From a virus, in IMG/VR virus record IMGVR_UViG_3300050132_000146, positions 1 to 64,000 of that record: a stretch of 64,000 nucleotides of DNA. One strand, written 5' to 3'. Below, in pieces: positions 5,651 to 34,005 of this stretch (position 1 is its first letter; each line of letters begins with the position of its first letter). Made by a program: the position numbers and the translations under genes. The notes under the pieces were generated by a model. That model saw only the letters and a list, made by a program, of their open reading frames with translations. It was not told where the DNA came from and made no database searches.

Positions 5651-5656
5651 TACATC

Positions 5657-7849
5657 ATGCCACTAACACCATCACTTGGGTCTCCTACAGTTTCGTTAAT
5701 CACGGTCGGTTCTGCTGTGCTCGGTGGGTCTGTTACCACGGGTAACGGTTCCCCAACCATTGCAATAGGAATTGTTTACGCCCCGGCCTCTGCTGGAACT
5801 GGTGTTCTTACATTGAATCATGCTGGTGCAACCACAATCCAGACATCTTCATTCGCTCAGTACGGTTCTACTGGGGCATTCTCGTTCCACTTCCCTGTTT
5901 CCGGTCTGAGCGCTGGTGTTCTTTACAACTTTGTTGCGGTTGCTGGTAATGTTGTTGGTGGTAATGCTTATTCTTCGGTTGGGCACTTTTCTACCCTTTC
6001 ACAGAACTGCAATCTGTCTGGACTTTCTATTTTTCCAGGTACGCTTACGCCTGGATTTGATCCATCCACAACCTCATACAGCGTTTTACTTCCTGTAGCC
6101 ACCACAAGCGCACAGCTTACGGCCACTAGACAACAAAACAACGCCACGATCAAGATCAATGGTCAGACGGCATCGTCTGGTGGTCTAAATACATTGACGC
6201 TTGTTCCTGGGGCCAATGTGGTTCCGGTTCTAGTTACGGCTCAGGATGGCGTTACGACACAGACGTACACGGTTACGGTTAATTGTGGTTTAGCCCCGGT
6301 TGTATCGTCACCAACATCTTCCGATGTAACATCCACTACTGTAACATTAGGCGGAAATGTGACGAGTGATGGTGGGTCTACGATTACAGATCGAGGTATT
6401 GTTGTTGGGTATAGCGCCATTAATTCAGATACCGCAACAGGAACTCCGTCTAAATTCAATCAAACGCCAATTATTGGCGGACCAAATATTAATCAATATT
6501 CAACATCAGGTACAACGGGTGCATTCACCCTGTCTGCCGCTGACTATTTGGGAGGACCAATATCAATTATTGGTGGTGTAGTGTACTCTTTTGCCGCATA
6601 TGCAACAAATGCAGCGGGAACCACATATAGCGATTACGCTAAGTTCACAACCGTTGGCGCTGACGGGTTTATCAGTTCATTCAAGATCAGCAAGGGTGAT
6701 ATTTCGCCACTATTTAATCCAGGCGTATTCTCATACACATCAACTGTACCAAACTCTGTTTCAGAGATCTCTATTTGCCCCACCCCTCTTCATAGGGACA
6801 CGGTTTGCAGTATAAACGGAAATCCGGCAGTAGGTGGAACCGGTTACGTATTCCCGCTTGTTGTTGGAAGTAATGTGTTTACCGTCATTGGTGTAAGCGG
6901 AAACGGATCAAACACCCGTACCTACACCCTAACCGTAACCCGATCAATATTCCAAATCCAAGTAAACTCCCCACTAGCCTACGTAATCGGTGGTAAATTC
7001 GGGAACCAACTAGTCTATGGAAATACCGGACTAAACGTACAAGAAGCTGGCGACATCACAACGGATCGTTTCGGCGTGTCCGCAGGTACGTGTGTGTTCG
7101 TTTCTCCAAAGAACAATGTACTTGAACTATCCGAGCAATTCCTTCATCTAGGAGTCGCAACGCATCCGTATGCGAACTGGCTTGTACTAACCAACAAGCG
7201 CGTAGTCATGTCTCCCGGTGTCTCAACCGTTGTCTGCACCTTCGAAGGGATCAAAAACCCCTCCGAGTTCATCTACAGCTTTGAAGCAGGTGCCACGCAG
7301 GAACCAATCCAAACCCATCCAAATTTCATCATCCTGGGCCAGCAATACGGCGTATGGACCGTGACTGATCCGAATACTCAGGTTTCTAATATTGTGGGAG
7401 GTGTTGAGGGTGGCATATTGCCGTCGTATGCTCAATTGTATCAGGGTCAGTTCGGTGGATTCCGCACAACCTCGAAACTTGCTGGTCTGGAGAACTACCT
7501 TGACTTCGGTGGCGCTACTTGGTCAGCAACTCAGGCCACTCCAGAGCCTCCGACTAACGCCCTGGCTACGATTGGCCACATATCAGTCCCTCTTGGCACC
7601 CCACCCATCTTCGATGATGGTCGAAGCGTGTTCTTCATTGGTCGCGGACCAAAAGGAGCCATCCTCGAAGAAATCGACTCGATCCAGCGTAACTGGCTGT
7701 ATATGGGCATGAACTTCACGCAACGAGGTTCGGCATACATGGTTACGCACAACTGGCTTTTGTCTGGTCCTGGTGGGTGGAATCCACTTATCTACTCCAA
7801 CGTTCCATTCGATCTTGGCGACGTTCAATCACCCGACTTCACCCTCTAA
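5657..7849 (+). CDS. Multi-domain beta-sandwich tail protein (Ig/FN3-like and cadherin-like repeats)
   Basis: A 730-residue Ser/Thr/Gly-rich protein. Residues about 1-115 and 210-330 are two fibronectin/Ig-like units that each end in a YxF-A-x-A-xN-x-x-G motif and a FST/FTT strand. Residues about 120-210 and 335-430 are two cadherin-like beta-sandwich units (PF12733 style) with signatures LSxLxxxxGxLxPxFxPxxxxY and YTLTV. The last 300 residues form a separate domain, perhaps the virion-anchoring or receptor-binding part. Such domains commonly decorate phage tails and bind surface glycans weakly. It follows the tape measure directly, so a distal tail or side-fibre role is likely. Confidence 0.75.
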   Translation: MPLTPSLGSPTVSLITVGSAVLGGSVTTGNGSPTIAIGIVYAPASAGTGVLTLNHAGATTIQTSSFAQYGSTGAFSFHFPVSGLSAGVLYNFVAVAGNVVGGNAYSSVGHFSTLSQNCNLSGLSIFPGTLTPGFDPSTTSYSVLLPVATTSAQLTATRQQNNATIKINGQTASSGGLNTLTLVPGANVVPVLVTAQDGVTTQTYTVTVNCGLAPVVSSPTSSDVTSTTVTLGGNVTSDGGSTITDRGIVVGYSAINSDTATGTPSKFNQTPIIGGPNINQYSTSGTTGAFTLSAADYLGGPISIIGGVVYSFAAYATNAAGTTYSDYAKFTTVGADGFISSFKISKGDISPLFNPGVFSYTSTVPNSVSEISICPTPLHRDTVCSINGNPAVGGTGYVFPLVVGSNVFTVIGVSGNGSNTRTYTLTVTRSIFQIQVNSPLAYVIGGKFGNQLVYGNTGLNVQEAGDITTDRFGVSAGTCVFVSPKNNVLELSEQFLHLGVATHPYANWLVLTNKRVVMSPGVSTVVCTFEGIKNPSEFIYSFEAGATQEPIQTHPNFIILGQQYGVWTVTDPNTQVSNIVGGVEGGILPSYAQLYQGQFGGFRTTSKLAGLENYLDFGGATWSATQATPEPPTNALATIGHISVPLGTPPIFDDGRSVFFIGRGPKGAILEEIDSIQRNWLYMGMNFTQRGSAYMVTHNWLLSGPGGWNPLIYSNVPFDLGDVQSPDFTL

Positions 7850-8040
7850 TGATCCAGCGCCAGAAACTTCTCGTCCGCAAGATCGGGAATAAAACACTGA
7901 TTACGCTTCCACCAACAAGACCCGTTTCGATGGCATACCGAATGATCGGAATGTCCACGGCTCTCGTTTACCAATCTGGCATGATTGGACCTATTATCAT
8001 GGGCGTATCAGTGGCTTCCGTTGGGGTACATATGCTATGA
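7849..8040 (+). CDS. Small membrane-like protein, function unknown
   Basis: 63 residues from an ATG that overlaps the previous stop as TAATG. The N-terminus is basic (RQKLLVRKIGNK) and residues about 35-60 are hydrophobic (GMIGPIIMGVSVASVGV), so one membrane segment is likely. A holin-like or tail-associated role is possible but unsupported. Coupling to both neighbours supports translation. Confidence 0.6.
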   Translation: MIQRQKLLVRKIGNKTLITLPPTRPVSMAYRMIGMSTALVYQSGMIGPIIMGVSVASVGVHML

Positions 8041-8291
8041 CCAGAAAGCCAATCATCTTTGCAGGTTTGCCAAAGACTGTTTCAGAGCAGAATCAGTTGG
8101 ATCAGTACAACCATGGTGTGAAATGGTCCGAATCAAAGCCAGCATCAATCGCAGGAAACTGGATGGGGCCGCGTCAGATCCCACCGGCATATGGACAGCA
8201 AAGACCCGCTCCAACGAAGAATATACTTCGTGTGAGCGGGTCGCTGAATTTGCTATCAATCAATGGCAGGGTGCTTTTGTCTCCCCAGTAG
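8037..8291 (+). CDS. Small hypothetical protein at end of tail operon
   Basis: 84 residues, starting in an ATGA overlap with the preceding stop. The composition is soluble, Gln/Pro/Ser-rich, with no recognised motif. Its last 36 bases overlap the end of the convergent glycosyltransferase gene. Probably the last gene of the rightward tail operon. Confidence 0.5.
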   Translation: MTRKPIIFAGLPKTVSEQNQLDQYNHGVKWSESKPASIAGNWMGPRQIPPAYGQQRPAPTKNILRVSGSLNLLSINGRVLLSPQ

Positions 8292-9368
8292 TTCGACAAC
8301 CGAGTCGATTACTTGCTCTGGTGTGATTGATGCGATCACGGTGCAGAACTTTGCGTGGGTGCAGGGGCGGTTGGGCGGGAATACGATGTTTTGCGAACTA
8401 TGAAAGAAACACGGGCTACAACCACCCTTTGGCTCAAGTACCGTACAGAAGTCGGGATTTGTCACCCTAAGAGCAGACGGGAATGAACCGAAGATCGCTA
8501 CAGTTGGTATACTCAGCGCCTGGGCTACGTGGAACAAGGATGAATCCGGCGTAAGCGCCACGTCACAGGTTTGTAGAACCGCCACGGATTCACGCATACC
8601 CAACCCATCGTTGGCCAAGTTGGTGCATCCAGGAAGGTCCACCTTCATTTGTCCAGGCTTACCGAACATGAAAACCTCGTGACCCATACTGGCGAGTGTG
8701 GCGCAGACGGTGGATAGTAGAGATGGGTGATAGGATCGTACAGGGCTGCTTGCAGCGACTTGGACGCCAATCCTGAGTGATTGGGTTCGCGGATAGCGGC
8801 GAAGCGCCTCAATGGCCTCTAATGGGCTTACATGCCATTCCAGGCGGCGTGAGTCGAGCGTTATTCCGATCTTCTGCGCGAATAGGTCTACAGCGTGGAT
8901 GTGTTCGGCTTCGGGGTTGTGCTCGATTAGGTTTTCATAGAAATACACAGCATCTCCTGGCTCAACAATGGATTGAGGAATTGGGGATGACATGACTTCA
9001 CAATTTACTCCATCGAAAGCAATCTTGTACTCATCGCCACAGACAACCACAACCCGGCACCTTGGCCACTTTGTTTTAAGTGCACGAATGGTTGGACCCA
9101 TGAAAAGACAATCTCCGTGGCCACCATATCTCCACAAGTACACTGTATGACCGTTCATGGAACGACGTGGTTGGATGGGAATATCGAACGCCTCGTTTAC
9201 GTGGGTCATGGACAAAAGGGATCGGCTCTTTCCGTCTGGACACGGAATTAACTGTGTGTCCTGAAGCATCATTCCTGATGTCTGACTGGTCAGCCAGTAC
9301 CGCTCCCCTGGCATCATGGTTGCGCCGCCAAAGACTGGAACCGGGTAATCGACTGAGACTAAATTCAT
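8256..9368 (-). CDS. Glycosyltransferase family 9-like (heptosyltransferase fold)
   Basis: 370 residues with the GT-B layout of family 9 enzymes such as the lipopolysaccharide heptosyltransferases. The N-terminal half has LWRYGGHGDCLFMGPTIRAL, the glycine-rich acceptor-side loop. The C-terminal half has ALTPDSSLFHVAQALSIP and VAIFGS, the usual ADP-sugar-binding region. It shares a 4-base overlap with the next gene upstream in the same operon. In a phage it might add a sugar to virion proteins or change host surface polysaccharide; the sugar cannot be read from sequence. Confidence 0.8.
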   Translation of the reverse strand: MNLVSVDYPVPVFGGATMMPGERYWLTSQTSGMMLQDTQLIPCPDGKSRSLLSMTHVNEAFDIPIQPRRSMNGHTVYLWRYGGHGDCLFMGPTIRALKTKWPRCRVVVVCGDEYKIAFDGVNCEVMSSPIPQSIVEPGDAVYFYENLIEHNPEAEHIHAVDLFAQKIGITLDSRRLEWHVSPLEAIEALRRYPRTQSLRIGVQVAASSPVRSYHPSLLSTVCATLASMGHEVFMFGKPGQMKVDLPGCTNLANDGLGMRESVAVLQTCDVALTPDSSLFHVAQALSIPTVAIFGSFPSALRVTNPDFCTVLEPKGGCSPCFFHSSQNIVFPPNRPCTHAKFCTVIASITPEQVIDSVVELLGRQKHPAID

Positions 9369-9958
9369 GGTGTGTAAAACGTGTGGCTTTCTGGAAACAA
9401 TTTATCGCACAACATCGCGCTGATCTTCCGCATATCCGCGTAATGCGAGTCGGGAGGTGGAGTCCTGGATGTGCCATCGTCCGTTACCTTTGCTCGACCC
9501 CCTGTACCATCGAATCCCACAAGCGTCAAGCTCGAACATCCTAAATAATAAGCAAAGTGAATCGCCGGATGTGACGAACTAGTGGCGATGTATAGTTGTT
9601 TGGACTTCGCCAGCTCATCACGAGTCTGGCGTAAGCGACCAGCACGACCCTCAACGGTGTTACCGAAGTGGGCAAACGGCAATGAGTCATCCGGCAGGAA
9701 TGAGCTTTCTTTACCCCAGGCGTTCAAGTATGGAATACCGCGAATCCACTGTGTTGGATGATGGCTCCACTGATTTGCGTCCTGATCGCATGAAATGCTA
9801 TAATGTGTTTTTGTTACCGAGCACACGTTATTAATCCCAATCACAATATGCCCGCTCGTATCGGGCTTATTCTCCAGCCACTTATCCAACGATGGACCAC
9901 GGCCAAGGAGGATGCACGGGAATCCCGCGTAACGGTTGTTTAGATTCTCGAATGTCAT
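9365..9958 (-). CDS. DUF115/CST-I-like glycan-related protein
   Basis: 197 residues opening with CILLGRGPSLDKW, the nucleotide-binding motif shared by DUF115 proteins and CST-I-type sialyltransferases (G-x-G-P-S-L). Later ATSSSHPAIHFAYYLGCSSLTLVGFDG matches the second conserved block of that superfamily. It lies between the glycosyltransferase and methyltransferase genes, with a 4-base overlap and a 2-base gap, so the three act together. The donor and acceptor are unknown. Confidence 0.65.
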   Translation of the reverse strand: MTFENLNNRYAGFPCILLGRGPSLDKWLENKPDTSGHIVIGINNVCSVTKTHYSISCDQDANQWSHHPTQWIRGIPYLNAWGKESSFLPDDSLPFAHFGNTVEGRAGRLRQTRDELAKSKQLYIATSSSHPAIHFAYYLGCSSLTLVGFDGTGGRAKVTDDGTSRTPPPDSHYADMRKISAMLCDKLFPESHTFYTP

Positions 9959-9960
9959 AA

Positions 9961-10551
9961 CTAAGGAAGTTGGATCAGGCTCAATCCCCTAGGCGAAGGA
10001 ATATGTATAACCCGATAACCCAACGAATCCAGGTCACGCTGGAGCTGATAAACATCCCTCATAGGGTGATTCGGAGCCGTGTCATGCGTCACAATCATTG
10101 ACCCCTTGCGCATCTTCGGAATCAACATCTTAATCTCAGTCAACCTCAGTCCAATCACCGAATCAATAAGCGCGAAATCAACTGGTAGTTGAAGATTTCC
10201 GATAAATTCAAGCGAGTCGCTAACATTCACGTCCACCCAATCAGTCAGTCCAACTTCGTTGATGTTGTGGACGGCATCCGCTGCTTGGTCTGTGTGCAGC
10301 TCAATGGTAGTTACTGATCCAAATCCATTCTCCCGGCAGGCGTGACCCATGACGGCGGCAGTGTAGCCATTCTCTGTTCCGGTCTCCAGGATGTGCGCTG
10401 GCTTGTAGTTGAGGACTAGGGCGTGGAGCAGGACGGCTTCCTCGACCGACATCGCCCCCTTGCCCCAACCTCCTTGATGGAAGAAGGGAGACATGGTTAA
10501 CTGTGGATGGCAGTCCGGTGAGGTGATTTCTCTGGCTAGGATGTTGTGCAT
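9961..10551 (-). CDS. Class I SAM-dependent methyltransferase (Methyltransf_24-like)
   Basis: 196 residues. ILETGTENGYTAAVMGHAC is the SAM-binding glycine motif, SVTTIELHTD carries the acidic residue at the end of strand 2, and VDFALIDS is motif II. The frame extends upstream to 10722, but ATG at 10551 is preferred because it follows an AAGAAATAAACAC leader of the type used elsewhere here and the conserved fold begins after it. First gene of a minus-strand trio with two glycan-type enzymes, suggesting sugar or protein O-methylation (inference). Confidence 0.75.
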   Translation of the reverse strand: MHNILAREITSPDCHPQLTMSPFFHQGGWGKGAMSVEEAVLLHALVLNYKPAHILETGTENGYTAAVMGHACRENGFGSVTTIELHTDQAADAVHNINEVGLTDWVDVNVSDSLEFIGNLQLPVDFALIDSVIGLRLTEIKMLIPKMRKGSMIVTHDTAPNHPMRDVYQLQRDLDSLGYRVIHIPSPRGLSLIQLP

Positions 10552-10901
10552 GTGTTTATTTCTTGCTGAATACTTTTGTCCAATGGAGAATGAGGCTGGT
10601 TGGCGTGGGGTTATCCCCATCCGTAATCCGACAGCAACATGTTTTTCCTGGTCTTGTGCATTCGATCCACCAGCATCCATCCCATGCCAAACACGGCTTC
10701 TGCCCAATCCTGCATACTGCATGTTGGTTGAAGTGGTTTACTGAGGTTTGGGTGGCGTCTAGCGATTGCACGGCTGCATTTAAACATAACGGACGGTGTT
10801 GTCAAGGGGAATTTGCACGGACGTTTGTTGTGCGGTTTTTGCTCATTTGCATGGACGGTGCTGGCCCTGGGGCGATTTTGCGAATGTCGAATTATATTCA
10901 A

Positions 10902-10930
10902 TAAGACAAACAAACATAAAGTATTATAAT
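10902..10930 (+). promoter_or_regulatory. Candidate sigma70-like promoter
   Basis: A perfect TATAAT lies at 10925-10930, with TAAGAC 17 bases upstream as a weak -35 match (TTGACA consensus). It points towards the accessory genes and sits in the divergent gap. Confidence 0.4.
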
Positions 10931-11181
10931 GTATCACAAACACCCCTTGCCAGAATGTTAGAATTTCCATAAATTAATTTAAAAATGAATGAAAATATCG
11001 CATGACGAACGGGAAACCCTCTCTACCTTGTATTCACCGGAAGGCTTCATCGCCTCCCCTATATGCGGATCACCCCTAACACGGTGGACACCCCCATGTC
11101 ATCAAGCCAAAGCGCGAAAGCGAGGTGCGGCTAACCCTATAATTTCCAGCGATGTTTTCAGGCACGGCTTGCGCATCTGAT

Positions 11182-11229
11182 TTCTGCCATCCCCTAATAG
11201 CTTCATGGTGAATCTATCGGATGGCAGAA
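11182..11229 (+). promoter_or_regulatory. Long-arm stem upstream of gene 11248
   Basis: Perfect 11-bp inverted repeat TTCTGCCATCC (11182-11192) and GGATGGCAGAA (11219-11229) closing a 26-base loop. It ends 18 bases before the preferred ATG at 11248 and contains an in-frame ATG at 11221, which is therefore the less likely start. It is one of several such elements in this zone. Confidence 0.6.
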
Positions 11230-11247
11230 TTCAGAACACATACCCAT

Positions 11248-11700
11248 ATGAAAACGAACATCGAAAACGCCAACGCCCTTCGCGAATACGCTCACAAAGC
11301 TGCAAGCACTGCGGGCCGAATCGCCAAGGCTGATCGCCAGCACAATGACCTTCAAACGGCCATCACTGGCAAGGCAACGATTGACAAGTACAACGCGCAC
11401 AAATCCCGTACTCCCCTCGAAATGGAACACCTGGGTTTTATGAAGGCCGTTGCGCTTATCAACAAGCTCGCCAAGGTGAATCTTGCCGATTGCCTTGCCC
11501 CTGCCCCTGAAAACATCGCCGCCGAAACCGAGGCCCCTGAGGTTGTCGCTCCGGCCCATGAGGTGGCCGAAACCGAGGCCCCTGAGGTTGTCGCTCCGGC
11601 CCATGAGGTGGCCGAAACCGAGGCCCCTGAGGTTGTCGCTCCGGCCCATGAGGTGGAAACCCCCCGCAAGCCTGCCAAGCCTGCCAAGGTGATAGCCTAG
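11248..11700 (+). CDS. Small Lys/Ala-rich protein with three identical 15-residue repeats
   Basis: 150 residues. Residues 1-90 are helical and basic. The C-terminal part is three exact copies of AETEAPEVVAPAHEV followed by a Lys/Pro tail (RKPAKPAKVIA). Start chosen at 11248, after leader GAACACATACCCAT, not the upstream ATG at 11221 inside a stem. Alternating acidic repeats with a basic tail resemble linker segments of nucleoid-associated proteins, but I recognise no family. A strong hairpin follows the stop. Confidence 0.7.
   Translation: MKTNIENANALREYAHKAASTAGRIAKADRQHNDLQTAITGKATIDKYNAHKSRTPLEMEHLGFMKAVALINKLAKVNLADCLAPAPENIAAETEAPEVVAPAHEVAETEAPEVVAPAHEVAETEAPEVVAPAHEVETPRKPAKPAKVIA
11521..11655 (+). 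repeat. Three perfect 45-base tandem repeats
   Basis: Units at 11521-11565, 11566-11610 and 11611-11655 are identical at the DNA level and in frame (15 residues each). Lack of synonymous drift means recent expansion or active homogenisation. Confidence 0.9.
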
Positions 11701-11714
11701 TTCACCAATCCCTC

Positions 11715-11742
11715 CCCCTTCCCTCACATCCGAGGGAAGGGG
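11715..11742 (+). terminator. Strong hairpin after gene 11248
   Basis: Perfect 11-bp stem CCCCTTCCCTC / GAGGGAAGGGG with a 6-base loop, 14 bases after the stop codon. No T-run follows, so it may act as a 3' stabiliser or processing barrier rather than a classic intrinsic terminator. Confidence 0.6.
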
Positions 11743-12440
11743 TGATAAAGAAAAGTTTCAGGTCTGTTAAGTTCTGTCCATGACTTCCGTGCATAGAATT
11801 TAGCCGATTGAATCCTAAGAAATGCCGATTCCTTCCGTTAACGTTATAAAATGGCCCTGCCACGTACGCCCTTAGACCGGGCGGCAGATGAATAATGCGA
11901 TAAGCCATAACATATATCCTAAGAGTCCGTGAGTTCTACCACTACGACTATGCCCAGAGAAGTGCCCCGTGCATCACTGGTTCCAGCCTGAACTTTATGA
12001 CGAATGATGGATAGTCCTGTCCCGGAGCTAGAGAGCTTCTGCACAATATCGAGGTACTTAGCTGCCCAAATAACAGGACACGAACGAGCGTGGATAATCC
12101 ACACCCGCGAGCAATTACAAGCTCAACGGAACGCTCAATGCCCGTCAGGCATTAGGTACAAACCCGCGTAAGCGAGGCCCGTACTAAGCGGTGACAACGC
12201 TAGGGATGAAAAAACTGTTGCAACGAAGTTACGCCCATTGGGTTAGTAGTGCCGTGCGCCCCACGAAAGAGGGCACAATATGCCACAAGCATAATCGTCA
12301 ATGGCCACCGTCGAAAGCGTACCATCAAGTATGGACTCGCAATCACAAACAAGCGCCATTCAGTAACACACGCTTTGAGCGTTTGCGTTCGAGTCACCAA
12401 TTAATGACGGAATGTGAAAACGCCCACCAATGTATTACAC
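11743..12440 (+). ncRNA. Candidate large structured non-coding RNA
   Basis: About 700 bases without a convincing gene, in an otherwise densely coding genome, yet full of local inverted repeats. Examples: CTGCC...GCCC-ttagacc-GGGC-GGCAG near 11855-11886, GAGCT-agag-AGCTT, GTGGA-taa-TCCAC, AATGCC-cgtca-GGCATT, CGC-GTAA-GCG with a GNRA loop, and ACGC-tttga-GCGT. Phages are known to carry large ornate RNAs (GOLLD, ROOL) of this size, often in accessory zones. I cannot align it to either class by eye. The alternative is decayed coding DNA. Strand is assumed from flanking genes. Confidence 0.4.
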
Positions 12441-12876: not shown

Positions 12877-13215
12877 ATGAACATCGAAGACCTTACTCTG
12901 CGTGAAATACGCGAAATTGCCGCAATCACATGCCCTCAAAACCGTAGTCCGCAACCACATCCATACAAGATTGGCGGGTTGTACTTCATCCGAACCGTCA
13001 CCATGTCTCATGCTGGCCGTCTGGTTGAGGTGGGTGATCATGAATTGATCCTTGAAGACGCATCGTGGATTGCTGATACCGGGCGACTCACGCAAGCGCT
13101 CGCAACAGGTCAATTCTCTGAGGTGGAGAAATTCCCCGTTGGTCGCGTAATCGTGGGTCGCGGTGCCCTCGTGGACGCGTGTGAAATAACCGTGATTCCG
13201 GTCTCGCAGAAATGA
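12877..13215 (+). CDS. Phage accessory protein of the IRTVT...AAWIADTGR family (DUF6948-like)
   Basis: 112 residues containing YFIRTVTMSHAGRLVEV, LILEDASWIADTGR and VGRGALVDACEITVIPV, the conserved blocks of a small family widespread in phage and mobile-element genomes (I believe DUF6948; number from memory). Function is unknown. It follows leader CCAAAACAAACGAAAA and its stop overlaps the next ATG as ATGA. Confidence 0.7.
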   Translation: MNIEDLTLREIREIAAITCPQNRSPQPHPYKIGGLYFIRTVTMSHAGRLVEVGDHELILEDASWIADTGRLTQALATGQFSEVEKFPVGRVIVGRGALVDACEITVIPVSQK

Positions 13216-13451
13216 TTGCCTCTGTAGCAAGGGCGGGACTAGACTCGTCGCGGTCGGGGTCGGCGTCGTGGTCGCGGTCGCGGTCGGGGTCGGCGTCGTG
13301 GTCGGGGTCGCGGTCGGGGTCGGCGTCGTGGTCGCGGTCGCGGTCGGGGTCGGCGTCGTGGTCGCGGTCGCGGTCGGGGTCGGCGTCGTGGTCGCGGTCG
13401 CGGTCGGGGTCGCGGTCGGGGTCGTGGTCGTGGTCGCGGTCGGGTTCCTAA
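13212..13451 (+). CDS. Possible Ser/Arg-rich repeat protein
   Basis: 79 residues from an ATG overlapping the previous stop as ATGA. After residue 12 it is made only of Ser, Arg, Gly, Ala and Trp (SRSGSASWS repeats) because it crosses a 30-base tandem array. The array is also open in other frames, so coding is uncertain; the coupled start is the only positive evidence. Confidence 0.35.
   Translation: MIASVARAGLDSSRSGSASWSRSRSGSASWSGSRSGSASWSRSRSGSASWSRSRSGSASWSRSRSGSRSGSWSWSRSGS
13251..13445 (+). repeat. GC-rich tandem array of 30-base units built from GGTCGN hexamers
   Basis: Five 30-base units run 13251-13400, four identical and one differing at one base (13281-13310), then degenerate hexamers to 13445. 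Every unit is itself made of the hexamer GGTCG(C/G/T). The strand is G-rich and its complement C-rich. It reads as Ser-Arg, Val-Ala/Gly or Arg-Gly in the three plus frames and Arg-Pro on the minus strand. Length variation by slippage is expected. Confidence 0.9.
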
Positions 13452-15329: not shown

Positions 15330-15509
15330 ATGAAACCCACCCAGCCATCGCTCCGTTCCGTAATCCTCTCCACGGACTACGCCGCAGCGGTGGCTGAGTG
15401 GCTGGCCAGCCCTATTTCCGTAGTCTCAGACGCTGCCAAGCACATCCAGGTGTGTTCTGACCGCATGAATAGGGTAAAACCCGTTAAAGCGCATTGTAGA
15501 GAGAAGTAG
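15330..15509 (+). CDS. Small hypothetical protein
   Basis: 59 residues (MKPTQPSLRSVILSTDYAAA...), predicted helical, starting one base after the preceding stop. Its stop (TAG at 15507-15509) lies in the left arm of stem element B. No family recognised. Confidence 0.5.
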   Translation: MKPTQPSLRSVILSTDYAAAVAEWLASPISVVSDAAKHIQVCSDRMNRVKPVKAHCREK

Positions 15510-15591
15510 AGTGGGCGTGTGAGATTGGGATCTGTGGCCCCGACTAAAATCGGTACCTGAAAAGACCAATTACAAGCACGCCCACCCTACT
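15505..15591 (+). promoter_or_regulatory. Long-arm stem element B upstream of the ubiquitin-like gene
   Basis: Arms AGTAG-a-GTGGGCGTG (15505-15519) and CACGCCCAC-c-CTACT (15577-15591) pair over 14 bp with one mismatch. Inside is CCGA-ctaaaa-TCGG. The right arm is followed by GCCCTCAAA as in element A. It is the only structured sequence before the ubiquitin-like gene at 15675 and so may control the cassette. Confidence 0.55.
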
Positions 15592-15674
15592 GCCCTCAAA
15601 ATCAGTTGTCCTCAACACATTACGTGACGCCGTTCCTGCGCTTGGATGTAAAAGTTAAAGACAAACACACACAT

Positions 15675-15992
15675 ATGGCTACCCACACACTCCAGACGAT
15701 CTTCGTGAACATCAACGGCAACAACCAGCCGTTCCCTGTCACGCATGGTACCACCGGCAATTCCTTCCTGGGCAACTCCACCAACCGCGATCTGTTCCAG
15801 ATCCCGGCCAATGTGGACGTTCTCGTGAACGGCGTCGGCGGCAGCGCTGGCGATCTCGGCCTCCGTGCCGGTGACGTGCTGACCTTCCAGACGAAGGCCA
15901 GTTCCAAGGCCGCCAAGGGCACCCTGCCCGCTGGCGTCAAGGTGAAGAAGGCCGCAACCGCGACCAAAAAGCCCGCCAAGGCGAGCAAGTAA
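15675..15992 (+). CDS. Ubiquitin-like (beta-grasp-like) small protein, PRTRC protein C position
   Basis: 105 residues from the ATG at 15675, after leader ACAAACACACACAT. Residues 5-20 (TLQTIFVNINGNNQPFPV) read as a beta hairpin and residues 47-72 (NVDVLVNGVGG ... LGLRAGDVLTFQT) match the closing strands of beta-grasp proteins, where an L-x-x-GD-x-(V/L) turn is typical. It lacks a C-terminal Gly-Gly; the tail is Lys/Ala-rich (VKVKKAATATKKPAKASK). It is followed by E2-like, ThiF and JAMM genes, the partners of prokaryotic ubiquitin-like proteins. A palindrome and terminator follow it, so it may be made in excess over its enzymes. The fold call is inference from pattern plus neighbours. Confidence 0.55.
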   Translation: MATHTLQTIFVNINGNNQPFPVTHGTTGNSFLGNSTNRDLFQIPANVDVLVNGVGGSAGDLGLRAGDVLTFQTKASSKAAKGTLPAGVKVKKAATATKKPAKASK

Positions 15993-16001
15993 GCCATACG
16001 A

Positions 16002-16015
16002 GCAGTCTAGACTGC
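16002..16015. promoter_or_regulatory. Perfect 14-base palindrome, possible operator
   Basis: GCAGTCTAGACTGC lies 9 bases after the stop of the ubiquitin-like gene and 13 bases before a terminator. Palindromes of this size commonly bind dimeric repressors; here it could control read-through into the enzymes. Confidence 0.4.
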
Positions 16016-16028
16016 CCAGTAGCGCTAT

Positions 16029-16055
16029 GGGGCGAATCCAAGTAGGGTTCGCCCC
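16029..16055 (+). terminator. Intrinsic terminator between ubiquitin-like and E2-like genes
   Basis: 11-bp stem GGGGCGAATCC / GGGTTCGCCCC (one G-T pair), loop AAGTA, followed by TTTTTC. It separates the ubiquitin-like gene from its enzymes and probably sets their ratio. Confidence 0.8.
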
Positions 16056-16093
16056 TTTTTCTTTCCAAACCAGATACCAGAACCACCAAGTAA

Positions 16094-16945
16094 ATGCAAA
16101 AATCATCAGTACTAGCAAACTGGCCCGTGAGCCAGCAATCCATCGAACAGTTCGATGTTGTTGATTTTGACGGAAGTGTTCGTGCACCAGCGGCGACATT
16201 CCGAAAGACAACCACGTATGAGTTCGTCGGTCTTGGTGGTATCCCTACCACTCAACAGTCTTTCATGTCTATGACACCAATGCTTTCAATCCCATTCAGT
16301 GAACTCGGAATCGCCGAATCCGGCAACGCTGAGTTCAAGATGTTCTTGTCCAAGCATGAAACGATGGGAAATATCTTCCTCATCAAGATGCACATGATTC
16401 GTCTGAACACGAAGTTCTCGGTAATCCAGGACAATGTAACCACCCCAGGAGTCGATGGTGCTGATGCAACGATTACACAAACATCACTCATCGTCCCGAA
16501 CTACACATCAGGTGTAGGACTTGCTCCAGTCTGGACTATGCCAGAGGCATCCGATTACGACTTCTGGCTTCTGTCGAAGTGTCCGTACACAGATCGTGGA
16601 CAGGCACATTTCTTCGCGGCCAAGAAGTCGAACAAGATGACTATCGGTAGACCTCCGCTTCCAAACTGCTTTGGCGACACCCGCTTCTGCATTGGAAATG
16701 AGGAATGGTGCCGACGTGGCGCATCTGATCCAATCGAGGTCGCCAAGGCTGCGGTAAAGGCAGCATTCATCAATCAGTGGCAGACGGACCTTCTTACCGA
16801 ACAGGCCAAAGAGGTTTCGAAGCGAATCTTCCGGTTCGATATTGAGACACAGAAACAGGTACCAACTGTTCCAAACTTCGCAACTGACTGCGGAGCTGTC
16901 GCCCATCAGGCAATCAGCAATATCATGTCAATGGTTGTTGAATAA
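16094..16945 (+). CDS. E2-like conjugating protein (PRTRC protein B / Prok-E2_D-like)
   Basis: 283 residues. The key block is residues 186-233: RPPLPNCFGDTRFCIGN followed by a helix ending AAFINQWQTDL. This matches the PRTRC protein B pattern (aPLxNVxxxGxVCxGN then a Phe-rich segment), the E2-like family known as Prok-E2_D. Cys199 in FCIGN is the likely thioester Cys; Cys192 is the alternative. The N-terminal 150 residues are beta-rich and unassigned. It follows the ubiquitin-like gene across a terminator and precedes the 80-residue gene and ThiF. The assignment rests on this motif and on synteny; overall similarity to known PRTRC B looks low. Confidence 0.6.
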   Translation: MQKSSVLANWPVSQQSIEQFDVVDFDGSVRAPAATFRKTTTYEFVGLGGIPTTQQSFMSMTPMLSIPFSELGIAESGNAEFKMFLSKHETMGNIFLIKMHMIRLNTKFSVIQDNVTTPGVDGADATITQTSLIVPNYTSGVGLAPVWTMPEASDYDFWLLSKCPYTDRGQAHFFAAKKSNKMTIGRPPLPNCFGDTRFCIGNEEWCRRGASDPIEVAKAAVKAAFINQWQTDLLTEQAKEVSKRIFRFDIETQKQVPTVPNFATDCGAVAHQAISNIMSMVVE

Positions 16946-16946
16946 T

Positions 16947-17189
16947 ATGAAAGTACAACTTCACGGTGCCACTCGTGAGCAATTCGAGATTGGCCAAACA
17001 TTCGCATTCACATCCTGGCAAAAGCGGTCAGATCCAGGTAAAACGCTGCGTCAGATGGAAAACATCAAAAAGCGTAGTTCATCTGCCGAATTCTCATTGT
17101 CGGAGGCATTCCCAACAGGAGTTCCTGTTCCGGATATTACCAACATCCAGAAACCCCAACGCCTAGAATCAGAGCCACTATTCCCATGA
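16947..17189 (+). CDS. Small protein within the conjugation cassette, unknown
   Basis: 80 residues from ATG 16947 directly after the E2-like stop. The first half is mixed (MKVQLHGATREQFEIGQTFA), the second Ser/Pro-rich and probably disordered. It overlaps the ThiF gene by ATGA. It may be a structural partner or second small modifier; there is no terminal Gly-Gly. Confidence 0.6.
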   Translation: MKVQLHGATREQFEIGQTFAFTSWQKRSDPGKTLRQMENIKKRSSSAEFSLSEAFPTGVPVPDITNIQKPQRLESEPLFP

Positions 17190-17899
17190 CCCCAAAACAC
17201 ATCCACGTAATCGGTTGCGGAGGCGTTGCCTCGCACCTACTCACTGCGCTCATTCAGACCGCAGAATTCGCCATGGACTGTCCCACCATCCACTTCTGGG
17301 ATGGTGACAAGTACGAGGACAAGAATATCGCTCGCCAGTTCCTTGCAAAAGGACGTGAGGGTCAATCGAAGTCTGAAGTATTCGCTGAGTACTATGGCGC
17401 TCTCTACGGAGGAACCATCATCGCTCACGATCAGTATTTCTTCGCTGACACATACACCATCGAAGAGAACTCCTTGATCATCTGCGTTGTGGACAACCAC
17501 CGTGGACGGCGTGAATGCAGGGAATCAGCAAGGCGCTCAAGTTCCATACTTGTTTCTGGTGCAAATGAGACGGAATCAGGTGAGGCATGGGTGTGGCTTC
17601 GTGAGAACGAGGGAAAGAATACTGATCCTTGGGTTCGCTATCCTGACCTTGAGACAGACGTTGGTATTGACCCGCTTCACGCGCAGGGTTGTCAGTCCGA
17701 ACTTGCAATCGTGGACAATCCACAGATCCCTGCTGGTAACATGCTCACTGCGGCGTGTATCGTGGGCCTTATTCAGGGAACGATCCTTGGTACCGAGGAG
17801 TATTGGGGCTACAGGTACAACCCAGCAGAGTACCGTTTCGTGCGGAATGGTCTCTTTGGTAAAACATTCGCACAACTGGAGACCACGACTACGCTATGA
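17186..17899 (+). CDS. ThiF/E1-like adenylating enzyme (PRTRC ThiF type)
   Basis: 237 residues forming one Rossmann adenylation domain. IHVIGCGGVASHLL at residues 6-19 has the GxGGxxS nucleotide loop. FWDGDKYEDKNIARQF at 37-52 contains the D-x-D, Asn, Arg and Gln residues that bind ATP. Asp103 in VVDN is the Mg-linked Asp of the family. GCQSE at 168-172 places Cys169 where E1 enzymes carry their thioester Cys, just before IPAGNMLTAAC. E1 enzymes adenylate the C-terminus of a ubiquitin-like protein and pass it to an E2, matching the genes before it. No extra UFD or domain fusion. It overlaps both neighbours by 4 bases. Confidence 0.88.
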   Translation: MTPKHIHVIGCGGVASHLLTALIQTAEFAMDCPTIHFWDGDKYEDKNIARQFLAKGREGQSKSEVFAEYYGALYGGTIIAHDQYFFADTYTIEENSLIICVVDNHRGRRECRESARRSSSILVSGANETESGEAWVWLRENEGKNTDPWVRYPDLETDVGIDPLHAQGCQSELAIVDNPQIPAGNMLTAACIVGLIQGTILGTEEYWGYRYNPAEYRFVRNGLFGKTFAQLETTTTL

Positions 17900-19833
17900 A
17901 CCATAATCCGCACGGAATTACAAATGACCAGATCCCGGAAGGTTGGAGACTTCTGACGGTAGAAGAACTTAGTGTTCTCGCAACAAGAGCGTATGGTGCG
18001 CAATATTGGGATTGCGATAATGGTGAGTTTAGGTTTAACTCATCATTCAGAGATCGATCAGGATCAAACGTTGGTGTAGCAACTACCTCAATCGTGCCCA
18101 ACGGATGGTCGGCAACAAACCAAATACACGAACCAATGCAAACAAACCGAATGACAGCAGATCAGTATGTTGACTGCTACAATCCAGATCAAGTTCCACT
18201 TGATTCTGTGCCAGATGGGTGGAGGATCATGTCCAGAACTGAAGCCACACCAATAAGGTTGGTTGATGGAGCTAAATATTGGTACGGTGCACCACGAGTT
18301 CCGGTCTTCCGATTTGCATCGGAAGAAAGAAACGGAATAGGAACAAGCCAAGTTGGAGGTTCCGACACCTGCATCGTTCCCATCTCGTGGGTTGATCCAA
18401 GGACCGTTGTGACACCAAACCGAATGACCCAACAGCAGTTCGATGACTCGTTCAACCCAAGCGATCTCACACTCGATCAGATCGAAGATGGTTGGACCAT
18501 CGTAAGTCGAACTGTTTCTGAACCTGGCGAATGGATACACGGAGCTGAGTGGTGGGATGGTGATGCGTGGTCTGATTCTGAGGGTACCCTTGGACGTGGG
18601 TGTTATGGTGATACTGTTGTAACCATTCGAATCAGAATTAACCCACAGACTGAATCGGTTGATGACGTGCCCGAACCAGAGCCTGAGCGTCACTTCAACA
18701 TCGTCGCCGAAGTCCAACGAATCGAACCATCCTTCACAATGGCTGAAATCCTTTCCACGTTCGCAACGTGTGGTGAAGAGTCGCAAGGAAGGGTGGATAG
18801 GTTGTTGGCTAGAGACCGTCAGTCTGATTATGACTCGTGGGAACGCTCGGCTCGCATTAACTCTGGTAGGCGTTCAACAAGAATCGTATGCGCCATTCAG
18901 TGTGCACTTCTCGCATTCGCTCACCCTGAGATCACCCAGGTCACACCAATTGCCACGCCAACCCCTCCGGTGGCACCAGCAACGCCTCCGGTGGGCTTGC
19001 GTGAATATCACAACCCTCGTAATGTCACTCTGGACGACATGGATGGGTGGACGCTTTGTCGGGTCGGTGAGCATATTCAAGGCAGTCGTATTGATGGTGC
19101 GCAATACTGGAATATTGATTCAAGAACATGGAGATATCAGTATTCCAGTGATCGCTACACCCTCTTCTACCCAGAAGAAACCATTCGTAAGCCCGGATCT
19201 ATGGGTCCGCCACCAGACCCTAACTCACCGGACCCTATTGTTCGCCTGACCATAGCGTGCCGTCGAAAGACGACTCCCGACATCAAATCGGCCATCTTCA
19301 CAAACCCCGCATCCTCAATTGTCTACACCCTGGCAAGGATAGAGATCAGTGAGAATGGTTGGTACAACACTCTGGAGGAGCAGCCTAAGACCCATGATGA
19401 ATGGGTTACGTGGCTTAATGCTTGTACTACCGAGGCCCCGCCACCTCCAGTCGTTGAACCTCCGCAACCGAATGATGATGGGGCACCCGCGTTCACTGTT
19501 CGAGTAACATGGAATAATACATGCGTATTGATTCATCATCAGCCATCCACTACTCCGTTTTCGTCAGAAGTTATTGTGCCAAATCACATTGCTCGCCGTG
19601 GAGCTGATGCGGTATATGATTATATTAATAGAGAGAGGAGTCTTGCCCCGGTTTCGGGAGAAACCGTTCTTGGTAGTATTGAGCACAATTCAACATACAG
19701 ATACAATGAACGTGATCTTGAAATCCCAATGTTCAATCCTCTTGAAGAATGGCAAAGAGCCAATGGAATCGTCGAAGAAACTGACGAGGAAGAATCAGAA
19801 GATGAACACGAGGACGAAGACGAAGATATTTAA
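17896..19833 (+). CDS. Four-repeat protein between E1 and JAMM genes, novel
   Basis: 645 residues. Four copies of a roughly 65-residue module begin near residues 4, 92, 186 and 373, with signature NPxxLTxDQIxDGW-(R/T)-(I/L)-xxR...GAxYW...FR. Between repeats 3 and 4 is a helical segment (HFNIVAEVQRIEPSFTM) and a Thr/Pro linker. A C-terminal domain (residues about 490-620, FTVRVTWNNTC onward) precedes an acidic tail DEEESEDEHEDEDEDI. No known family recognised. It starts inside the E1 stop (ATGA) and precedes the JAMM gene, so it belongs to the cassette. A conjugation target, scaffold or E3-like adaptor is possible, but no RING or HECT features are visible. Confidence 0.8.
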   Translation: MNHNPHGITNDQIPEGWRLLTVEELSVLATRAYGAQYWDCDNGEFRFNSSFRDRSGSNVGVATTSIVPNGWSATNQIHEPMQTNRMTADQYVDCYNPDQVPLDSVPDGWRIMSRTEATPIRLVDGAKYWYGAPRVPVFRFASEERNGIGTSQVGGSDTCIVPISWVDPRTVVTPNRMTQQQFDDSFNPSDLTLDQIEDGWTIVSRTVSEPGEWIHGAEWWDGDAWSDSEGTLGRGCYGDTVVTIRIRINPQTESVDDVPEPEPERHFNIVAEVQRIEPSFTMAEILSTFATCGEESQGRVDRLLARDRQSDYDSWERSARINSGRRSTRIVCAIQCALLAFAHPEITQVTPIATPTPPVAPATPPVGLREYHNPRNVTLDDMDGWTLCRVGEHIQGSRIDGAQYWNIDSRTWRYQYSSDRYTLFYPEETIRKPGSMGPPPDPNSPDPIVRLTIACRRKTTPDIKSAIFTNPASSIVYTLARIEISENGWYNTLEEQPKTHDEWVTWLNACTTEAPPPPVVEPPQPNDDGAPAFTVRVTWNNTCVLIHHQPSTTPFSSEVIVPNHIARRGADAVYDYINRERSLAPVSGETVLGSIEHNSTYRYNERDLEIPMFNPLEEWQRANGIVEETDEEESEDEHEDEDEDI

Positions 19834-19857
19834 CCCAGAAAAACAACCAGCACACCC

Positions 19858-21399
19858 ATGATCTACATCAACGACAAGAATGAGGTTCTCGAACGTCGAG
19901 AAACCTCCATTGGTTCAGCCTTCGTTTCAACCAGGATTAAGGCAATCCCAATCGCACAACGAGCCTACATCAACTTCCAAAAAAAGATGCCGCTCGCAAT
20001 GTGGCGTCAGATGATTGGATTCTTCCTGTGGTCTCAAAAGGAGCATAAGTCCGAGGCACAGGTCACTGGATTCATCCACCAAGATACTGGTGAGTGGTTC
20101 ATGATTCCTTTCCACCAGATCGGTATTGGAATGACAACCAAGGAGGTTGAGGGTGGTGACAATATTTCCCTATGGGAGCAAATCATACAAGCCGGATTCG
20201 GTCCAAACCCAATCTTCACCGGCCATCACCATTGTACTTCGTCTGCGTTCGCCTCTGGTACAGACACTACCGACGAGTACACGAACAAGCCCCAAGGAGT
20301 ACACATCACAATCGGCAAGTTGGACTCAAACCCACTTGACCTACATTGCCGAGCAAAGCTGTCGTTCATGGGTCAGTTCAATCAGGAAACTGGAGAGGTA
20401 ATCTCACCTGGAAGCTCAATCCTTCTACCATCTCACCCTCTTGAGTTCGTTGAAACCGGACTTCGTAATGAGGATGTTGGCGGAATGAATGACGTTCTCA
20501 TCAAGCAGATCACTGAGTTCTTCCTGCTCAAGAAGGAGGAGTGGGAATTCCCAGAGGAGTGGAAGGCGCGAATGACAAAACAGTCTTACGCCACACACAG
20601 CACAGTCACATACACACCAGGGGGTCATCTATCCTGGAAGGACAGCAAGAAGCGCCCAAAGTCCCGGTGCCCGGCGAATACGAAGTATCCGCTGGTTCTG
20701 GTAAACAGCGTGGTAAACATCTGCGCAAATCCGCTAAATACAACCGCATGGTTCGACGCGGTAAGAGAGGCGGTCACTAAGAAGGAGCCAGAGAAGCTCG
20801 AAAACTTCTTCAATGAAATGTGTGATCGGTGCGGATATGCCAAACCAAATAAGGAATGGTGTTGGGCGTGGCTTGAAGCGTGGGAGATTGCTGACCTTCT
20901 CTTGAATTGCAAGAGTGGCACCGACTATGTATTTGACAACCTTCCTGGAGAGTACTACGATGCGCTTCTGGTTAGCGTTGTTGTGGCCATGTATGAGTCG
21001 GACATCAATGCAGAAGCGTTCCGCGCATACTTCACCAACAACAAGGCTCTTGAGAATACCGGTAATGACCCAGCTTTCAAGGAGTGCGGAATCCACACGC
21101 TCAATATCGGCAAGAAGCCAAATACTGGCATCTGGAATCTGTATCAGAAGATGTACGACAAGGCATCCAACGAGTTCATTGATCGTCACTCAACCGTGAA
21201 CAAGGAGGCTCAGACAATCTTTGAGGCCAAGTTTAAGGAAATGGGAGTTCCAAAGGAAGAACTTGTGTTCGATGCCGGTGAAGACCCAGAGTCCGAATTC
21301 TACGGATACTCTGCCGAAGAGATCGCTCAAATGGAAGGGTATGGACTCACATTCCCTGATTACCAGGGAAGCAGCTCATACGCAGGAAGAATCCTCTAA
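19858..21399 (+). CDS. JAMM/MPN metallo-isopeptidase-like protein with C-terminal extension (PRTRC protein A-like)
   Basis: 513 residues. The complete JAMM zinc signature is present: His123-x-His125-x7-Ser133-x2-Asp136 in GHHHCTSSAFASGTD, with Glu66 in SEAQVTGF as the upstream catalytic Glu. JAMM enzymes remove or process ubiquitin-like modifiers. Here it would mature the ubiquitin-like protein, whose Lys-rich tail hides any diglycine-type end, or reverse conjugation. The domain spans about residues 10-200. The following 310 residues are unassigned and include a Cys pair (CDRCGYAKPNKEWCW) and helices. The gene closes the cassette, 24 bases after the repeat protein. Confidence 0.85.
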   Translation: MIYINDKNEVLERRETSIGSAFVSTRIKAIPIAQRAYINFQKKMPLAMWRQMIGFFLWSQKEHKSEAQVTGFIHQDTGEWFMIPFHQIGIGMTTKEVEGGDNISLWEQIIQAGFGPNPIFTGHHHCTSSAFASGTDTTDEYTNKPQGVHITIGKLDSNPLDLHCRAKLSFMGQFNQETGEVISPGSSILLPSHPLEFVETGLRNEDVGGMNDVLIKQITEFFLLKKEEWEFPEEWKARMTKQSYATHSTVTYTPGGHLSWKDSKKRPKSRCPANTKYPLVLVNSVVNICANPLNTTAWFDAVREAVTKKEPEKLENFFNEMCDRCGYAKPNKEWCWAWLEAWEIADLLLNCKSGTDYVFDNLPGEYYDALLVSVVVAMYESDINAEAFRAYFTNNKALENTGNDPAFKECGIHTLNIGKKPNTGIWNLYQKMYDKASNEFIDRHSTVNKEAQTIFEAKFKEMGVPKEELVFDAGEDPESEFYGYSAEEIAQMEGYGLTFPDYQGSSSYAGRIL

Positions 21400-33072: not shown

Positions 33073-34005
33073 ATGATCACAACCGGAACCGAACCACGAC
33101 TAGAGTGCTCCTCGAAAGGAGATAAGCGCTTCTCAGCATTCTACGCACGCATACACAATCGTAACAACAAAACCATTGAAGAGATCTATCAAGCCAGTAA
33201 AGTATTCGAAGATGGTTCCACCAATCTTTCTTGGCGAGAAGCCAAGGGTCGCAAGGCAGTAAATATGGACGAGTGCTCAACGCTATACTCCAAGCTATGG
33301 GATGAATACTTCTCGGCAAATCCAGACCTACTTACATTCATTAAGACATTCAACGGATTCACCGATATTTTCGGACAACCCGGACACTGCTGTCAAGCAA
33401 CCGAGGTCCACCGCATCGCTAATCAATCTAAAATGACACCAAAACACTACATCGCCATCGACACCGAAACAGGTGGCCTAGACCCCTCTCGCTGCGCCCT
33501 CCTCTCCATCTCCTGCGTCTCCTCCCGTGGCCCAACCTTCTCTCGACACATCTACCCACCTCAGGGCGACGTAGACGCACGCGCAGCGGAGGTTTCTGGC
33601 TACACACCAGAGAAGTGGATTGAGCGTGGCGCGGTGCCCTTAAAACAGGCTCTGGATGAAATGCGCGAATGGTTCAAAGAAGTTAATAATGAAAAGACTG
33701 CCGAAGTGGTTGCCCATAATGCCAAATTCGATCAGGACTTCATTCATCAGGCCGTAATACGTACTGGCTTCGGTGTTCGACGAAGCATTGAGTGGACATG
33801 CACCAAAAAGAGGCTATCAAACTTCAAAGCCAAGCGCTACATGACCGGAACCGCCAAACTCGACGATCTCGGAACCCTCTCTGGTTTCTGGCAACTCGAA
33901 CCACGCTTATCCGCTCACGATGCCCTCCAAGACGCCCGCTGTTGCCTGCACGGTGCGATTTGGCTTGACGAACAGGAAAAGATCAATACATTAACTCCGC
34001 AATGA
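33073..34005 (+). CDS. DnaQ-like 3'-5' exonuclease fused to an N-terminal phage domain
   Basis: 310 residues. Residues 1-115 form a domain (KGDKRFSAFYAR ... TDIFGQPGHCCQAT) that I know as a stand-alone conserved phage protein of unknown role. From residue 126 comes a DEDD exonuclease: IAIDTETGGL (Asp130, Glu132), VVAHNAKFDQDF and HDALQDARCC supply the four acidic residues. An ATG at residue 121 (33433) could give a separate exonuclease. Exonucleases of this type proofread or degrade DNA. The fusion is the odd feature. Confidence 0.8.
   Translation: MITTGTEPRLECSSKGDKRFSAFYARIHNRNNKTIEEIYQASKVFEDGSTNLSWREAKGRKAVNMDECSTLYSKLWDEYFSANPDLLTFIKTFNGFTDIFGQPGHCCQATEVHRIANQSKMTPKHYIAIDTETGGLDPSRCALLSISCVSSRGPTFSRHIYPPQGDVDARAAEVSGYTPEKWIERGAVPLKQALDEMREWFKEVNNEKTAEVVAHNAKFDQDFIHQAVIRTGFGVRRSIEWTCTKKRLSNFKAKRYMTGTAKLDDLGTLSGFWQLEPRLSAHDALQDARCCLHGAIWLDEQEKINTLTPQ

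Follow-up and report, generated by a model that had tools for sequence, protein, structure and literature searches.

Background

What is known of ubiquitin-like (Ubl) protein conjugation in bacteria comes mainly from host defence and from uncharacterised plasmid cassettes. Antiviral Ubl conjugation by the host has been described (PMC10097602), as have bacterial operons of a similar kind (PMC1779556); among the latter, type 6d operons (Iyer, Burroughs and Aravind 2006, PMC1779556) encode separate Ubl, E2-like, E1 and JAB proteins together with a further conserved protein. The plasmid cassettes are represented by the PRTRC families (NCBIfam TIGR03734-03742), present for example in pQBR55 and A. 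aromaticum plasmid 1, and from their description we read the 6d operons and PRTRC as one kind of system. We describe here a six-gene cassette of related content in a 64,000-nucleotide stretch of viral DNA (IMG/VR record IMGVR_UViG_3300050132_000146, positions 1 to 64,000; hereafter the window) and its relatives in many other phages. Conserved gene content and active-site residues suggest that, its target aside, this operon probably works as a functioning, phage-run cycle of Ubl conjugation and deconjugation.

A six-gene cassette in a phage genome

The source record, a virus contig of 65,104 bp, encodes a terminase of the GpA type and a portal of the lambda type, so an earlier note on this DNA was right to call the cassette phage-borne. 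Six closely packed genes occupy positions 15675-21399 of the plus strand, in the order Ubl, E2-like, Y, E1, X and JAMM. The Ubl gene (15675-15992) encodes a predicted beta-grasp modifier of 105 amino acids, and is followed by the gene for the E2-like protein (16094-16945). One base past the E2 stop begins a small open reading frame (ORF), Y (16947-17189, 80 amino acids), whose end overlaps by ATGA with the start of the gene for an E1, or ThiF-type, adenylyltransferase (17186-17899). A second ATGA overlap, at 17896-17899, joins E1 to X (17896-19833), which encodes a 645-amino-acid repeat protein, and 24 bases past X starts the gene for a JAMM/MPN+ metalloprotease (19858-21399). The earlier note had listed five of these genes; their coordinates and motifs all check on re-examination, the ATGA overlap of the E1 and repeat genes included, but the sixth ORF (Y) and a strong terminator hairpin between Ubl and E2 (16029-16055) had been overlooked.

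Taken alone, the window offers little sequence evidence apart from E1: none of the remaining proteins has a convincing family match of its own. The case therefore rests on relatives.

Conservation of gene order in viral relatives

Scans with the window E1 or JAMM as single proteins returned no matches, and alignments were required. Similarly, tblastn with the E2-like protein found nothing in phages, and a search of plasmids with the window E1 found nothing either. With E1 as the query, tblastn led to the Vibrio phages D69, D181 and D148 and to Salmonella phage Arash, where the neighbouring genes encode Prok-JAB proteins above the Pfam cut-off, sub-threshold Prok-E2_D proteins, ThiF, and small proteins that end in TGTKG or are built of TGTKG-ending units. 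An E1 alignment scan of IMG/VR yielded 11 phage contigs, mostly large, while JAMM-alignment scans yielded 36 and later 89 viral loci (80 kept), as well as 8 loci in contigs of metagenome-assembled genomes (MAGs), several of them assigned to Verrucomicrobia. The locus sets from these separate scans partly overlap and may lack records very close to the window. We set aside one contig (L018) whose terminase is 82% identical to that of the window, as it stops short of the cassette region.

Hidden Markov models of Ubl, E2 and E1 played no part in the JAMM scan and were applied afterwards to the sequence beside each JAMM gene. Of 79 loci scored in this way, 60 have exactly the order Ubl-E2-E1-JAMM. 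Truncation at contig ends accounts for nearly all of the others; one locus (L108) has another order, one (L062) shows JAMM alone despite 7.8 kb of upstream sequence, and in a third (L066) JAMM is weak and no E1 is seen. Since the window E1 passes the Pfam ThiF cut-off and scans guided by JAMM alone recover Ubl, E2 and E1 in three quarters of the loci, the cassette stands far above chance. After removal of identical E1 sequences, E2-E1-JAMM is present in 72 loci, and 64 non-redundant viral or MAG loci carry all four core genes ordered Ubl-E2-E1-JAMM. Synteny in related phages, whose absence had been named beforehand as one result that would speak against a conjugation pathway, is thus abundant. 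That the same gene set and order recur in dozens of phage genomes suggests that bacterial viruses probably run a protein-tagging pathway of their own. An E1 tree places the window E1, apart from plasmid PRTRC, in a group with 14 phage E1s (support 86/94), almost all of which come from cassettes sharing its gene order; deeper forks are weakly supported.

The scans also brought up a second cassette type in five contigs (L014, at 4303-12007, L048, L050, L051 and L054), combining very large E2-like proteins with JAMM, E1 and Ubl. Here the Ubl ends in GTKG or RKG, in several cases with a Rho_N/SAP-like domain before it, and a second E1-like gene is usual. An RNA polymerase Rpb1 gene follows the cassette in L048 and, as judged by eye, in L014.

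The predicted conjugation and deconjugation enzymes

Active-site conservation was counted in alignments of distinct family members, among the sequences with a residue at the column concerned. The window E1 matches Pfam ThiF with an E-value of 2.6e-9 and 37 bits (cut-off 28.1) and contains the motifs G10-C-G12-G13-V-A-S16, D39-G-D41 and N47-I-A-R50-Q51. The motifs of the E1/ThiF superfamily (GxGGxxS, DxD, N..RQ, K, D) are kept in about 100 sequences, which places the family within it, and the putative catalytic Cys169 (codon 17690-17692) is kept in 102 of 102. Profile matches in the PDB include the E1s of NEDD8, SUMO and ubiquitin, ThiF, MoeB, BubCD and Cap2.

By its motifs, the JAMM-family protein is a JAMM/MPN+ member, with an upstream Glu66 and the pattern H123-x-H125-x7-S133-x2-D136 (HxHx7SxxD). 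All four residues of the pattern are kept in 109 of 109 sequences, and the glutamate in 108 of 109. The window JAMM falls below the Pfam Prok-JAB cut-off, which the D69 and Arash copies reach; the family also gives weak matches to Rpn11.

The E2-like protein contains an HPN-like P-N191 and, within the motif RPPLPNCFGDTRFCIGN, the putative catalytic Cys199 (codon 16688-16690). Eukaryotic E2s have an HPN..C motif; the phage form is N-x7-C-x-G. An active-site cysteine with a nearby asparagine is a constant feature of the family (Asn191 and Cys199 in 84 of 84 aligned), and the two cysteines singled out earlier, Cys169 in E1 and Cys199 in E2, thus prove to be the invariant ones. The AlphaFold2 model is mediocre (predicted local distance difference test score, pLDDT, 66.5; predicted template modelling score 0.63). 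Its strands are followed by the N191..C199 loop and this by helices, the order of a UBC domain, which fits the E2 fold proposed for this 283-residue protein, but a Foldseek search with the model returned no E2 among its matches. A PDB profile search with the family gave nothing relevant. Against Pfam Prok-E2_D, 6 of 16 relatives match at E<=0.1 (best 1.1e-4; D69 4.4e-4), all below the cut-off. Because Foldseek found no E2, the assignment rests on the motif, the constant position of the gene, sub-threshold similarity to Prok-E2_D and profile similarity to PRTRC B.

Several further observations, like the Foldseek result, weigh against a complete conjugation pathway. The window E2-like protein matches none of the curated E2 families, and, E1 apart, the window proteins match family libraries below cut-off or not at all. 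The phage E2s are without the canonical HPN histidine; after the cysteine, no column has histidine in more than 40% of sequences, and a conserved N-x-D-L is found there instead. With both the HPN histidine and a downstream histidine of the 6d type absent, we can only infer E2 activity. The Ubl mostly ends in alanine, which is odd for an E1 substrate, and comparison does not support homology of the window Y and X to the genes of other loci.

The predicted ubiquitin-like modifier

An AlphaFold2 model of the 105-residue Ubl, built on a 22-sequence alignment, has a pLDDT of 76 and the order beta-beta-alpha-beta-beta. Its best Foldseek neighbours in the PDB are archaeal ubiquitin, SUMO, MoaD and ISG15 (probability 1.00, E about 1e-3), with template modelling scores of about 0.57-0.64 against single-domain ubiquitin-fold targets. 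On this model the protein is a beta-grasp ubiquitin-like protein, as the earlier note had supposed.

The same MoaD likeness could point to a sulphur-carrier or small-molecule pathway, in which Ubl, E1 and JAMM would act like ThiS/MoaD, ThiF and JAB and the second protein would not be a conjugating enzyme. The E1 profile also matches ThiF and MoeB, siderophore operons contain JAB proteins alongside ThiS-like ones (PMC1779556), and the Foldseek result for the E2 model fits as well. We nevertheless consider this very improbable: neither a metabolic neighbour nor a rhodanese is seen, the set includes an E2-like protein with invariant asparagine and cysteine, Cys169 of E1 is likewise invariant, and profile comparisons tie the gene set to PRTRC.

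All 22 Ubls compared share Lys78 of the window protein, and relatives end on a conserved S-K-[AG] or no more than a few residues away from it, so that alignment places the mature end of the window Ubl at Ala79 (or Gly82). Counted with redundant sequences included, 43 Ubl ORFs have QASSKA as their last residues, and SKA(V), TKG, GTKG or RKG are found in others; Ser-Lys-Ala ends are commoner than glycine among phage Ubls. Past its conserved SKA, the window protein carries a basic tail of 26 residues (residues 80-105, 15912-15989) with low model confidence (pLDDT about 52). From the alignment of relatives, this is a predicted precursor tail that would have to be cut off before use.

Some relatives encode tandem modifiers with KG or KA ends: five units in L008, three in Vibrio phage D69 and two each in L015, L016 and L019. 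Tandem Ubls and the window tail both call for a processing endopeptidase, for which JAMM would be the obvious candidate. In two contigs the genes are polyubiquitin-like, with each unit ending in TGTKG: L008 (5598-6704) has five tandem units and L001 (2391-3182) three. In Salmonella phage Arash (L002, 107-307), the conserved Ubl ORF is without annotation, and gp251 is annotated in an overlapping other frame. Two peptides have been reported for gp251; as its frame conflicts with that of the conserved Ubl, either the annotation or the peptide assignment is doubtful.

A terminator between modifier and enzymes

The gap between the Ubl and E2 genes contains a predicted intrinsic terminator (16029-16064), with an 11-bp stem, a loop of 5 and a T-rich tail. 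The RNA folds at -22.2 kcal/mol (z -4.2), and the four examples that we folded all beat their own shuffles (z -2.7 to -4.2). Of 64 loci, 30 have a perfect-stem terminator in this gap, versus none of the 64 matched E1 coding segments that served for comparison, a contrast somewhat flattered by the control, as coding sequence is an imperfect match for an intergenic gap. The stems of different loci differ in sequence. Given the position of the terminator, the simplest reading is that the modifier would be produced in excess of the enzymes. The high third-position GC content of the window Ubl gene (0.83 versus 0.43-0.58 in the genes compared) was also considered as a sign of expression; we do not lean on it, since the excess is strong in the window and slight across relatives (positive in 41 of 64, mean +0.03).

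High expression would also suit a role of the Ubl as a sponge in counter-defence, whereby the cassette, chiefly JAMM and Ubl, strips or out-competes the conjugation systems that hosts direct at phages (Bil, Bub, CBASS Cap2). Anti-phage Ubl-type systems of bacteria are known (PMC10097602), Bil among them (work cited in PMC12660748), and phage E1s show weak matches to E1-E2 models in PADLOC. But a pure remover needs JAMM only, yet the catalytic residues of E1 and E2 are as invariant as those of JAMM; furthermore, plasmid PRTRC has the same core without any virus particle being built. We regard counter-defence as unlikely. It is not mutually exclusive with the virion and genome-maintenance roles considered below.

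The additional genes Y and X

An ORF, mostly of about 110 amino acids, lies between E2 and E1 in 71 of 72 loci, and a further gene lies between E1 and JAMM in 28 loci, the window included. In other loci, many genes of the E1-JAMM interval belong to a single family, marked by an acidic tail and a conserved helical motif. The window X has four repeats (residues 1-77, 90-172, 181-257 and 370-444) and an acidic C terminus, and no relative of it was found in viral contigs, phage records or Pfam. The resemblance of its C terminus to the X family found in other loci did not reach significance; pairwise, its similarity to the L074 protein was equalled in 3 of 500 shuffles, but this pair was chosen post hoc. 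No sequence homology was found between the window Y and the Y of relatives. As far as sequence goes, the window Y and X are positional counterparts only of the relatives' genes.

Proposed pathway and targets

The earlier note had taken the cassette for a full attach-and-remove pathway. The gene order shared by 64 loci, catalytic residues that hardly vary, the beta-grasp model and the one-to-one matches to PRTRC C, B, ThiF and A lend this view good support. We propose the following cycle. The terminator after the Ubl gene would limit transcription into the enzyme genes, leaving Ubl in excess. By trimming the Ubl tail, JAMM would uncover the conserved end of the modifier, Lys-Ala at residue 79 or Lys-Gly at residue 82. 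E1, to judge from its invariant residues, may then adenylate the trimmed end and load Ubl onto Cys169, from which it would pass to Cys199 of E2 and on to lysines of target proteins. Y, X or both could, more speculatively, act as an adaptor, an E3-like factor or a preferred target. JAMM would remove the tags as well.

Virion proteins are one conceivable target: capsid or tail proteins might be tagged during assembly, perhaps with the enzymes packaged. In Arash, E1 (Gp246), JAMM (Gp247), E2 (Gp248) and a neighbour (Gp249) are among the virion proteins reported by liquid chromatography-mass spectrometry (PMC10585845). This proteome comprises 116 proteins, including ribonucleotide reductase, with support down to two peptides and coverages that look implausibly high, and its authors themselves mention carry-over of abundant infection proteins (PMC10585845). 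PRTRC plasmids have no virion, and the cassettes of relatives adjoin replication genes. A virion role thus strikes us as quite unlikely, somewhat more so than counter-defence.

In relatives, the neighbouring genes encode DNA polymerase A, archaeo-eukaryotic primase (AEP), Rad52/Mgm101, helicase and RNA polymerase. These neighbours suggest an early or replicative function and make virion parts somewhat less likely targets. They also bear on genome maintenance, in which the Ubl system would mark partition or replication proteins and aid persistence or segregation of the element, as might be guessed for PRTRC plasmids. PRTRC cassettes include a ParB-family gene, DNA polymerase, primase or Rad52-like genes lie beside the relatives' cassettes, and a ParB-like protein (recognised by eye, without a Pfam match) follows the cassette of L038. 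As PRTRC ParB was not found in this genome and there is no sign of plasmid-style replication by these phages, we hold this explanation to be as improbable as counter-defence.

Our own, tentative preference is for targets in the infected cell, that is, proteins of replication and transcription or of host takeover rather than parts of the virion. The fullest version of the proposal may be put just as tentatively: dozens of phage lineages may possess an autonomous, reversible tagging system, belonging to the phages and not to their hosts, in which a Lys-Ala-ended modifier, boosted over its enzymes by a conserved terminator, reprograms replication or host proteins.

Other features of the phage genome

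Directly upstream of the Ubl gene, an ORF-poor stretch contains an inverted repeat (15499-15597; 21-nucleotide arms, 86% complementary and 57 nucleotides apart) without an Rfam match. Farther upstream are low-complexity coding repeats at 13212-13451 (SGSASWSRSR units) and 11221-11700 (EAPEVVAPAHEVAET units). An AAA_24 protein (38073-40028) and a DnaB helicase (43965-46340) each have internal LAGLIDADG/Hom_end domains, so that two replication genes of this phage probably carry inteins. At 33073-34005, a DarT1-associated NADAR-like domain is fused to an RNase T-type exonuclease, possibly a counter-defence against ADP-ribosylation.

Comparison with known systems

Our searches of the open literature turned up no account of E1-E2-Ubl-JAMM operons in phages; paywalled papers and preprints lay outside these searches, and we therefore claim no priority. 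A survey of jumbo phages makes no mention of E1/E2/JAB systems (PMC7824862). Our finding of a complete, conserved operon in many phages suggests that phages themselves probably modify proteins in this way. These cassettes offer ready single-operon systems for biochemistry, and have a bearing on the question of where, before eukaryotes, E1/E2 cascades diversified.

A phage Ubl with a JAB protease is already familiar from lambda tail assembly, in TAPI/TAPK (ubiquitin-like and JAB/NlpC; PMC1779556), which differ from the present cassette in their tail-gene context and in having no E1 or E2.

Bil, Bub and CBASS are host defences, in which E1 and E2 are often fused and the other partners differ. 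The bacterial E1/E2/JAMM logic of Bil, Bub and CBASS Cap2/Cap3 is shared, and the phage E1 profile matches the PDB chains of BubCD and Cap2; unlike in those systems, the genes here are separate and in a phage. PADLOC gives weak, partial E1-E2 matches for E1 and none for the other proteins, and so recognises no defence protein in the cassette.

E1 and JAMM are also phage-borne in Vibrio D69, D181 and D148, Salmonella Arash, Bacillus KLEB27-3 and Acinetobacter ME3. E2 was found in D69, Arash and KLEB27-3, and a TGTKG-ending Ubl in D69 and Arash. Cassettes of the D69/Arash/KLEB27-3/ME3 type lie on another branch of the E1 tree, and in them JAMM precedes E1. PRTRC-A/ThiF labels are already present in the records of ME3 and KLEB27-3, and none of the records for these phages recognises a conjugation system.

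Like the type 6d operons, the phage cassette has separate Ubl, E2-like, E1 and JAB genes and an extra protein. The 6d Ubl has a highly conserved terminal glycine, where phage Ubls mostly have alanine, and the 6d E2 an absolutely conserved downstream histidine that phage E2s are without (PMC1779556).

For PRTRC, two plasmids supplied six families, with which we compared the four phage families by hhalign. The pairing is one-to-one and strictly diagonal: E1-ThiF 4.3e-21, JAMM-A 1.4e-9, E2-B 0.0014 and Ubl-C 0.0015, with off-diagonal values of at least 0.13 (for E2 against the five other families, at least 0.32). The E2-B and Ubl-C values are supportive rather than conclusive, as the hhalign probabilities are low (7%). 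Against the NCBIfam models, the window E1 reaches 4.5e-10 and 39.3 bits with PRTRC_ThiF, far short of the equivalog cut-off of 144.75; its distant homology is plain from the hhalign value. PRTRC_A matches 17 of 19 family JAMMs (best 5.1e-17) and not that of the window; PRTRC_B matches 1 of 16 family members (0.0034) and not the window E2.

The E2 motif N-x7-C-x-G is common to phages and PRTRC, and PRTRC C ends in GTKG, like some phage Ubls; most phage Ubls end in SKA. PRTRC ParB, D, E and F gave no match at E<=1 in the 65-kb record, which may be incomplete and in which divergent copies may escape detection. The PRTRC order, ParB-E-C-F-B-A-ThiF, differs from the Ubl-E2-Y-E1-X-JAMM order of the phage, which adds Y and X and whose E2 is without the downstream histidine. 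Given the differing order, the missing histidine and the failure to find ParB, D, E and F, we file the cassette as PRTRC-like and not as PRTRC. The likeness links the puzzle of plasmid PRTRC to an infection cycle, in which deletion phenotypes can be scored.

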